The notes below the pieces were generated by a model, which was not told the origin of the DNA, ran no database searches, and worked only from the letters and a program-made list of their open reading frames with translations. From Bacteroidaceae bacterium (GTDB taxonomy: Bacteria > Bacteroidota > Bacteroidia > Bacteroidales > Bacteroidaceae): DNA of 40,405 nt. This document shows positions 7,562 to 24,498 of the stretch, piece after piece (position 1 is the first letter of the stretch; each line of letters opens with the position of its first letter). Made by a program: the position numbers and the translations under genes. Location: contig JAFTYI010000022.1 in assembly GCA_017464815.1 (NCBI GenBank), forward strand, positions 1-40,405. The letters are read 5' to 3'.

Positions 7562-7610
7562 TTTTCCCATGACTTCAATCACAATACTGACGCACACCAA
7601 ATGTGAACAT

Positions 7611-7676
7611 ACCTTAACCCAAGGATGAGCCTACCTTAACCCAAGGCTAAGCCAACCTTACCCCAAGGGTGGGCTT
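7611..7676. repeat. 22-bp tandem repeat, three copies
   Basis: Three units at 7611-7632, 7633-7654 and 7655-7676. Each starts ACCTTAACCCAAGG (ACCTTACCCCAAGG in the third) and continues with a variable half (ATGAGCCT, CTAAGCCA, GTGGGCTT). They lie in the probable 5' leader of the DUF4348-like gene. Each unit contains CCTTAaCCCAAGG-type dyad symmetry (CCTT..AAGG). Confidence 0.85.
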
Positions 7677-7756
7677 GCCTCATCCATAGGGCGGAAAAGG
7701 GGCGCTTCACGACGGTGATTTGTCCATACAAAACACTATAGTTCCAAATTTATCCG

Positions 7757-23556: not shown

Positions 23557-23564
23557 CAAAGATA
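23557..23564 (-). promoter_or_regulatory. -7 box of hipBA
   Basis: On the - strand TATCTTTG, a full match, 29 bases upstream of hipB ATG 23528. The region where -33 would lie is occupied by the first operator-like repeat. Confidence 0.65.
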
Positions 23565-23575
23565 CAAAATAATCT

Positions 23576-23635
23576 CTATATTTTTATAGATTAACCCCAA
23601 AAATCGATGATAAACTATATATTTTTATAGGTTAA
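23576..23635. promoter_or_regulatory. Paired operator-like sites upstream of hipBA
   Basis: TATATTTTTATAGATTAA (23577-23594) and TATATTTTTATAGGTTAA (23618-23635) differ at one base and are 41 bp apart, close to four DNA turns. The first includes the dyad CTATA-N4-TATAG (23576-23589). It lies 12-25 bp upstream of the -7 box, so protein bound here would block sigma. Most likely the HipB/HipAB operators; this is inferred from position. Confidence 0.65.
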
Positions 23636-23697
23636 TCTTATTATTTCTTACATCAAATTCTAAAAATTTTTCGCTTCACTTCTTCATTTCACATTGC

Positions 23698-23760
23698 GAA
23701 ATGTATATTTCACGTCGTGGAATGTACATTCCAAATCGCGAAACGTACATTTCGCGACGT
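23698..23760. repeat. Three 21-bp units with central palindromes
   Basis: Units at 23698-23718, 23719-23739 and 23740-23760. Each starts with a 14-mer dyad: GAAATGTATATTTC, GGAATGTACATTCC (perfect palindrome) and GAAACGTACATTTC. The centres are exactly 21 bp apart (two turns). Linkers ACGTCGT, AAATCGC and GCGACGT are also dyad-like, and the third unit sits in a longer dyad CGCGAAA...TTTCGCG (23737-23756). A partial unit (ATTTCACATTGC) precedes and GAAAT follows. The array ends 26 bp upstream of the HU-gene -33. Confidence 0.85.
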
Positions 23761-23786
23761 GAAATAAAAAAATAAGCAGGTTTTTC

Positions 23787-23817
23787 TTGCTTTCTCTATT
23801 TATTTTTTGTATATTTG
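23787..23817 (+). promoter_or_regulatory. Promoter of the HU/winged-helix gene
   Basis: TTG (23787-23789), 20-base spacer, TATATTTG (23810-23817), a full -7 match. The leader to ATG 23866 is about 43 bases. The 21-bp palindrome array lies directly upstream, a typical place for regulator binding. Confidence 0.7.
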
Positions 23818-23865: not shown

Positions 23866-24498
23866 ATGGCAAAGTACATCAAGCAAGAAATCGTAGACCT
23901 GAGAGGCGAAGGGCAGACCAAAGCCTACTACCGCATGAAGACCATCCGCAACATAGGGATGGAAGAGTTTGTTGAAATCATGACCCGCCGGGGCGGACTG
24001 ACGCGTGGCACAGCCATCTCGGCACTGATGCATGCCACAGAGACGCTAGGCGAGCTGATGGGAATGGGTTACACGGTGAGCATCGACGGGCTGGGCACCT
24101 TCAAAGCTACGCTGGGCCTGCGCCGATTCAAGGAGATGGACAGCATAGACGGCGATGACCCCAAGCGCAATGCACAGAGCCTGTGCGTGGACGGGGTGAA
24201 CTTCAAGGCGGACAAGGAGCTAGTGAAGCAGGTGGACAGACACTGCAAGCTGGAGCGAAGCCACACGAGCCGCCTGCGCAAGTCGCCCTACACACGCGAG
24301 GAGCGGTTGGCACGCGCCCTGGCATTCATCGGGGAACAGGGCTTCATGCGCCTGAAGGACTATGTGCAACTGACCGGTCTGTCGCGCTCGACCGCCTGCC
24401 GCGAGCTGCAGGAACTGTGCAAAGACCCAAGCAGCGGCATAGACACCAGCGGACGGGGTGCACACAAGGTGTATGTGAAGAGAGAGGGGGGGGGATAA
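23866..24498 (+). CDS. HU-family DNA-binding protein fused to a winged helix (HU-HIG type)
   Basis: 210 residues from ATG 23866; the upstream in-frame start at 23815 lies on the promoter and is rejected. The HU-like domain (about 1-120, MAKYIKQEIVDLRGEGQTKAYY... GLTRGTAISALMHATETLGELMGMGYTVSIDGLGTFKATLG) has the Bacteroidota HU-HIG pattern, where HU is joined to an extra domain. The extra domain here (about 140-205, EERLARALAFIGEQGFMRLKDYVQLTGLSRSTACRELQEL) is a winged helix with recognition-helix-like SRSTACRELQ. A nucleoid-type or local regulator role is expected. The gene is divergent from hipBA, convergent with the GT4 gene, and ends in a run of nine G (24486-24494) encoding the C-terminal Gly residues. 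Confidence 0.88.
   Translation: MAKYIKQEIVDLRGEGQTKAYYRMKTIRNIGMEEFVEIMTRRGGLTRGTAISALMHATETLGELMGMGYTVSIDGLGTFKATLGLRRFKEMDSIDGDDPKRNAQSLCVDGVNFKADKELVKQVDRHCKLERSHTSRLRKSPYTREERLARALAFIGEQGFMRLKDYVQLTGLSRSTACRELQELCKDPSSGIDTSGRGAHKVYVKREGGG

Follow-up and report, generated by a model that had tools for sequence, protein, structure and literature searches.

The HU-HIG locus and its palindromic array

The window analysed here is a stretch of 40,405 nucleotides (contig JAFTYI010000022.1) from the draft genome of a Bacteroidaceae bacterium (GCA_017464815.1; 2.63 Mb, 79% complete). In it, a gene for an HU domain fused to a winged helix (HU-HIG) lies between a hipBA pair and a convergent glycosyltransferase gene, and a block of tandem palindromes stands just before it (Table 1). 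The encoded protein matches the HU-HIG profile PF18291 (44.7 bits, cut-off 26.2) and scores 53.8 bits for TIGR01201 (HU_rel), under the cut-off of 68.6; in a sequence search of solved structures, its matches to HU and IHF proteins are weak (best E 8.8e-05). Its AlphaFold model has a mean pLDDT of 88 and a pTM of 0.55, so the relative placing of the HU part and the winged helix is less sure. In this predicted model, an HU-like first half is followed by helices at residues 144-158, 163-170 and 174-186 and strands at 192-195 and 202-205, and the order of helices and strands in the second half is that of a winged helix. The -33 and -7 boxes of the gene were called with what we take to be the promoter consensus of the Bacteroidales. 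For the HU-HIG family we found no described function in the searchable literature; a 2017 paper by Burroughs and colleagues reportedly deals with HU clades.

Table 1. Positions of the array, the promoter and the HU-HIG gene in the window
Feature	Position	Strand	Remarks
Four-unit 21-bp palindromic array	23686..23765		80 bp, before HU-HIG gene
Core dyad 1, ATTTCACATTGCGAAAT	23686..23702		14/17 positions palindromic
Core dyad 2, ATTTCACGTCGTGGAAT	23707..23723		14/17 positions palindromic
Core dyad 3, ATTCCAAATCGCGAAAC	23728..23744		6/17 positions palindromic, degenerate
Core dyad 4, ATTTCGCGACGTGAAAT	23749..23765		14/17 positions palindromic
Three 14-bp dyads of the earlier note, junctions between the four units	23698..23753
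Promoter of HU-HIG gene, Bacteroidales type	23787..23817	+	-33 TTG at 23787-23789, -7 TATATTTG at 23810-23817
HU-HIG gene, HU domain fused to winged helix	23866..24498	+	210 aa; ATG at 23866; PF18291
Codons 174-186, predicted recognition helix of winged helix	24385..24423	+	residues 174, 175, 178 and 179 covary with array sequence

An earlier note on this DNA had described three 14-bp dyads with centres 21 bp apart, and these are indeed present (23698-23711, 12/14 positions palindromic; 23719-23732, 14/14; 23740-23753, 12/14): a triplet at this spacing with at least 6 of 7 pairs per dyad occurs once in the window and in none of 200 whole-window dinucleotide shuffles. The count of three units was mistaken, however, as the block consists of four 21-bp units of which the three dyads are the junctions. 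The linkers, which the note had singled out as themselves dyad-like, are the cores of these units, and since a palindrome in a tandem repeat always yields a second dyad half a period off, they add no evidence. The array ends 21 bp, rather than the 26 bp first given, before the TTG of the -33 box (23787) and 44 bp before TATATTTG (23810). A strict pattern, GRAAYGTAYRTTYC, occurs at five places in the draft genome (the reversed pattern at none), three of them in the window array and two, 42 bp apart, in a second array on another contig; the window array was itself found again at G000:C23 and G000:C21. Two imperfect direct copies with CTATATTTTTATAGATTAA-type sequence lie before hipB (23557-23635) and are possible candidates for HipB operators.

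Recurrence, promoter register and covariation

When the upstream regions of same-genus relatives are read directly, they contain arrays of like build and differing sequence. The exact 14-mer is found in 2 of 15 genus genomes; one of these occurrences falls within a long open reading frame resembling that of a penicillin-binding protein, and so counts as chance. Conservation near orthologous genes, on which the earlier note had let its proposal depend, has to be judged separately for sequence, which is not conserved beyond close orthologues, and for architecture, which is: a four-unit block with a 21- or 22-bp period precedes the gene in 57 of 67 upstream regions (66 relatives and the window; 47 at 21 bp and 10 at 22 bp), in a test that covered 450 bp upstream and allowed periods of 18 to 30. 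Shuffled sequences gave a block in 16 of 1,340 cases and windows taken elsewhere in the same loci in 8 of 341, five of these 8 with a 21- or 22-bp period. The relatives belong to assemblies from the gut or rumen whose titles read Bacteroidaceae, Bacteroides, Prevotella, Parabacteroides or other Bacteroidales. Some of the 67 loci had already been in the first genus set (L108-L111, for instance, carry the same genes as L009-L012), and the 67 include close relatives (L120-L122, L125 and L169; L171 and L172) as well as seven cut or short proteins (L166-L168, L170-L173); when only full-length proteins under 80% identity are counted, the block is present in 34 of 38. A lag test for a 20-22-bp signal (p <= 0.01) was positive for 37 of 44 winged-helix HU-HIG genes, 19 of 41 short HU-HIG genes and 1 of 15 ordinary HU genes, in a set that includes duplicate genes (L041 = L088, L050 = L107) and one masked upstream region (L080). 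Many distant HU-HIG genes, but not all, have arrays of 20, 22, 23 or 24 bp.

Scanning 998 kb of the loci at periods of 15-30, with HU promoters and known dispersed arrays included in the count, gave 81 blocks with a 21-bp period and 21 with a 22-bp period; no other period had more than 6. One of the 57 arrays (L155) has a fifth unit next to it that scores at least 0.55, and the flanking units are at background in the other 56 (dyad score 0.64 versus 0.26). Under a fixed threshold, 27 of the 57 arrays have three complete dyads, 16 have four and the remainder fewer or more, so that four good dyads are not shown by that count alone.

Ten of the 67 loci have no block within 450 bp upstream. In six of them (L124, L126, L136, L139, L140, L143) a VapE-like helicase gene lies upstream of the HU gene; in L124, L136 and L139 the VapE-like gene is itself preceded by a 22-bp array, and in L126 by a weakly palindromic one. 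In L146 and L153 the array is about 0.9 kb upstream, with small open frames in between; L152, for which 1 kb of upstream sequence is available, shares its small gene with L153. In L109, whose protein is 76% identical, other DNA takes the place of the array, and the HU-HIG gene is still there. Near two HU-HIG loci there is a weakly palindromic 19-bp direct repeat, CAATTCGTGAAATAAGT (L164:2849, L168:4772).

When flanks were compared by clustering (some are cut by contig ends), the VapE-like helicase gene was also the commonest neighbour, found at 10 of 67 loci (L117, L119, L124, L126, L131, L136, L139, L140, L141, L143) and directly upstream of the HU-HIG gene in nine of the ten; a domain scan of L139 gave it a BT4734-like N-terminal domain. 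The control of a polysaccharide locus that the earlier note had raised lacks support across the family, where the one recurrent glycosyltransferase-like gene cluster lies within 6 kb at 5 of 67 loci, but a link is possible in close orthologues: four of the five are the window and L108, L109 and L111, which are three of its four closest relatives (the other being L110).

The strongest evidence that the array may act on the promoter of the gene behind it is their helical register. A -7 box (TAnnTTTG, at most one mismatch) could be scored at 49 of 56 arrays and was always downstream of the array, in a search that started 60 bp upstream of it; one of the 57 arrays had no candidate promoter, seven of the 56 fell under the score used, and the loci lacking a near array (10) did not enter the count. 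The array ends 19-25 bp from the -7 box in 21 of the 49 loci, 41-47 bp from it in another 21 and at a distance outside both ranges in seven; the two classes differ by one unit. Over 30 non-redundant loci (below 80% protein identity) the phase concentration R is 0.66, compared with a permutation mean of 0.17 and with none of 5,000 permutations as high. Two exceptions were noticed by eye: in L018 and L019 a box resembling TATCTTTAC stands before the array.

Array sequence also follows protein sequence (Mantel r 0.43, 0/500 permutations), mean array similarity being 0.70 above 90% identity and 0.44 below 60%. For this comparison proteins shorter than 195 aa were excluded, leaving 55 and then 38 under 85% identity, and five far arrays were placed by hand (L124, L136, L139, L146, L153). 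With overall identity held constant, four residues predicted to open the recognition helix of the winged helix rank high among 177 columns: R179 is 4th, C178 6th, R174 11th and S175 14th. The mean of seven chosen helix columns was matched by random column sets in 23 of 20,000 draws and by row permutations in 0 of 200, the seven having been picked after the domain-level similarity correlations were known; the remaining three are unremarkable (Q182 rank 42, T176 rank 46, E183 rank 141). On the HU side, columns V10, A53 and A103 outrank the helix columns, and the HU domain correlates with array similarity at least as well as the winged helix (0.41 and 0.34), so that the covariation favours the recognition helix without isolating it.

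Dispersed copies and the BrickBuilt repeats

The earlier note had overlooked that the array belongs privately to its paralogue and that the genome contains dispersed copies matching it. A sequence model, R1, finds the array 14 times in G008, 12 times in G002 and 3 times in the window genome, each total including the HU promoter; it also matches at three or four places in G007 and at one in G009. R1 was built from three arrays that it itself finds, and it is four units long, which favours four-unit matches but not the lack of a fifth unit. Every motif with which a whole genome was searched was also found there at a distance from the HU gene. Dispersed copies match an HU promoter array of their own genome in G000, G002, G003, G005, G008, G169 and, from another family, G288. 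In G003, where the HU array has another sequence, the genome's own motif gives 25 matches (reversed 2; 2-4 in five other genomes), and six of eight places examined are four-unit arrays. The motif of a second paralogue clade recurs in G000, G002, G006 and G008, in G005 with the changed core of that genome's own HU array, and as single matches in G003 and G010. The closed genome G169 contains 12 matches to a third motif and none to the reversed motif, and a same-genus genome has none; in this one closed genome seven places, the HU promoter included, fall within about 1.5 of 3.3 Mb. The motif of G288 gives 43 and 45 matches there (reversed 4 and 5) and is also raised in the related G113 (24 and 35 versus 8 and 4), so the motifs are not strictly private to one genome.

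Among 42 dispersed places in the genus, 40 are exactly 4 x 21 bp and none has a fifth unit, the two dropped being L265 (three dyads, 0.48) and L270 (chance); L223 and L224 have sequence on one side only, and weak R1 matches in G005:C59, G007:C85, G010 and G014 are outside the count. Of 20 further stretches, 18 are four-unit blocks: 7/7 in G288 and 5/6 in G169, all 4 x 22 bp (the sixth in G169 has no clear four-unit block), 2/2 in G000, 2/3 in G005, where one of the three is at a contig end, and 2/2 in G006. Arrays without a matching HU gene were found in G007 and G009, and the sole candidate for the five clade-2 places of G006 is an HU-HIG fragment; these three drafts are 76-81% complete.

Judged by their ends and neighbours, the dispersed arrays do not look like ordinary operators. 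None of 80 dispersed-array ends, some of them near contig ends, has a perfect promoter at a phased distance, and with one mismatch allowed there are 2 such promoters versus 5 in twice as many control windows. Where named, the 20 neighbours scanned are unrelated (SufD, RNase G, TrkH, transposases, phosphoglucomutase, glycosyltransferase). The genes around 29 dispersed arrays are convergent at 10, tandem at 14 and divergent at 5, compared with 8, 25 and 12 background gaps, an orientation bias too weak to build on.

Some arrays call for separate mention. In 4 of 15 genomes (L213, L215, L217, L219) the same phosphoglucomutase-family gene has an array on its 3' side, with unit sequences in G009 and G002 that differ from those in G000 and G007; the conserved position is suggestive only. 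The window itself contains a second four-unit array, with a 22-bp period (7604-7691), in the intergenic region before the gene for the phenylalanyl-tRNA synthetase alpha chain (7834, + strand); no HU-HIG cognate for it was found among the loci read, the best own match being L069 (0.52 versus 0.78 for the array itself). Further four-unit palindromic arrays of 21 or 22 bp away from HU promoters were seen at L142:8263, L147:7322 and L158:1264.

A comparable repeat has been published. BrickBuilt, a 23-nt repeat found between genes at 19 places in Porphyromonas gingivalis ATCC 33277, has been described as a miniature inverted-repeat transposable element (MITE) that has target duplications and, at its ends, short inverted repeats (PMC4596501). 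Its shortest copy, BrickBuilt_14 (84 nt), lies between PGN_0871 (- strand) and PGN_0872 (+ strand), the latter annotated as "DNA-binding protein (PF00216)"; the accessible part of the paper counts five DNA/RNA-binding genes among 38 neighbours and does not tie the array to the HU protein (PMC4596501). PGN_0872 and PG1391 are mentioned, within the literature searched, only in that paper (PMC4596501). BrickBuilt is like the arrays described here in being a dispersed intergenic tandem repeat with one copy directly upstream of a gene for a DNA-binding protein, but its copies range from 1 to 22.8 units, many with leader and tail segments, whereas the Bacteroidales arrays here have four.

With up to 3 mismatches allowed, the BrickBuilt consensus AGAYCATARTATCCTCTCRTRTG has no match in the window genome. 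Across 397 Bacteroidales genomes it has many matches only in G806 (112 and 106) and G793 (12 and 17), with none for the reversed consensus; 11 others have one match, and none of the 149 genomes in the family of G271 has more than one. In G806, a P. gingivalis-like genome, a 4 x 23-bp BrickBuilt array (L362:1376-1467), its fourth unit diverging in the second half, leaves 23 bp to TATATTTG and 91 bp to the ATG (1559) of an HU_rel gene, which scores 171.7 bits for TIGR01201, above the cut-off, and is the sole HU-HIG-profile match in the 80 kb fetched. A dispersed intergenic array with a copy before an HU-type gene is thus found both in the window genus and in this P. gingivalis-like genome, and from their sequences the BrickBuilt repeats of P. 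gingivalis appear to fit the system of four-unit arrays and HU proteins.

Proposed binding by the cognate protein and competing explanations

The earlier note had proposed a phased platform for cooperative binding, possibly serving autoregulation by the HU-winged-helix protein. Its interpretation is, in part, supported: recurrence at 57 of 67 loci, the register and the helix covariation suggest such an autoregulatory platform as the best reading. Widened to the dispersed copies, we consider it probable that each protein cooperatively binds its own array, regulates itself and occupies the dispersed arrays as chromosome sites. The HU-HIG/winged-helix proteins of Bacteroidales would then be architectural proteins that bind DNA sequence-specifically, and each would have a private site in which four palindromes follow in tandem at a spacing of two helical turns (21, 22 or 23 bp; total length about 80-92 bp). 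Four dimers could bind one face of this DNA cooperatively, with the half-sites read by the winged helices and the DNA bent or joined by the HU domains. One copy directly before the protein's own promoter, at a fixed helical phase to the -7 box, would make the gene autoregulated. The same protein would also bind the further copies, which lie in unrelated intergenic regions and lack phased promoters, and there it would most likely organise the chromosome or be titrated. Architecture, recurrence, register, covariation, the build of four units and the dispersed copies are seen in the sequences themselves; from them we infer binding, its cooperativity, autoregulation and its sign, and the architectural role.

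Of the alternatives, the one that survives best, though we think it unlikely, is that the arrays are MITE-like mobile palindromic elements, whose dispersed copies have no host function and one of which was captured by the HU promoter as an operator. Many dispersed copies in G008 and G002 have inverted arms of about 30 bp in common, two G002 copies (L223 and L224) are identical in the stretch compared, L265 and L269 have common flanks, and the published account of BrickBuilt is that of a MITE (PMC4596501). However, only short arms are common to most copies in G003; all 40 copies in the genus have four units and no fifth, though the arrays differ between species; a matching array stands at the HU genes of G000, G002, G003 and G008; and the promoter copies are in register with the promoter. 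An origin in phages was also considered, and the 28 pattern matches in viral contigs included no relative.

Less probable still is a classical regulon, in which the HU-HIG protein would be a transcription factor for the genes beside each dispersed array. The register of the promoter copy and the intergenic position of the dispersed copies are consistent with it, but the lack of a perfect phased promoter at any of the 80 dispersed ends, the 10 of 29 copies between convergent genes and the unrelated named neighbours argue against it. The two remaining alternatives are both very improbable. An unrelated regulator such as HipB could bind the array, as hipB and hipA are divergent and adjoin it, but hipBA was found only at the window and at L109 among the 67 loci, L109 having no array; the repeat pair beside hipB is the better operator candidate, and neither HipA nor HipB is among the 20 scanned neighbours of dispersed arrays. 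The arrays could also be RNA hairpins or terminators, with palindromic units and 10/29 dispersed copies between convergent genes, but at the promoter the -7 box downstream in all 49 scored loci places the array outside that transcript, and a helical register with the promoter is a feature of DNA.

Autoregulated binding to private arrays, our preferred reading, has partial likenesses among known systems. REP/REPIN palindromes have a cognate RAYT transposase. As here, a gene lies beside its own private palindromes, with dispersed copies in the genome, but there the protein is a transposase and here an HU-winged-helix protein with four units in helical phase. MatP/matS, Noc/NBS, SlmA/SBS and ParB/parS are alike in that a specific protein has dispersed sites that are not necessarily operators, but these are short single sites, usually with one system per genome and no four-unit array at the protein's own promoter. 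The P. gingivalis HU protein PG0121 and the 77-bp inverted repeat of the capsule locus likewise join an HU-type protein to a palindromic element near a polysaccharide locus; PG0121, however, is similar to E. coli HU and was assayed with DNA structures, and there is one inverted repeat and no phased array (PMC3969353). The statement of the earlier note that no described system has this layout was nearly right: for the pairing of an HU-HIG protein with its array and for the four-unit build, whose logic resembles that of site-specific chromosome proteins or REP/RAYT pairs, we found no described counterpart, whereas the dispersed part had been published as BrickBuilt (PMC4596501). For this pairing the literature was searched through titles and the openings of abstracts, mostly outside subscription journals, along with parts of PMC5771137 and PMC3969353.

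If the cognate proteins do bind, a rule may follow for a large protein family, namely that four palindromes two turns apart upstream of the gene are the proposed binding site, and a published but unexplained repeat family, BrickBuilt, may be explained. The pairs also suggest a rapid co-change of protein and dispersed sites, and may offer naturally orthogonal DNA-binding pairs. A more speculative extension, to be held tentatively, is that a Bacteroidales genome has several to a dozen orthogonal chromatin systems, in which every HU-HIG paralogue would load its private array, 80-92 bp long or about one superhelical turn, with exactly four dimers. The resulting particle, small and nucleosome-like, would mark the paralogue's own promoter together with a set of addresses on the chromosome, and recognition would diverge between paralogues so that addresses stay unshared. 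As a minor observation, several contigs (L223, L224, L214, L215, L216) end a few to a few hundred bases from an array, and the arrays or their surroundings may break assemblies.
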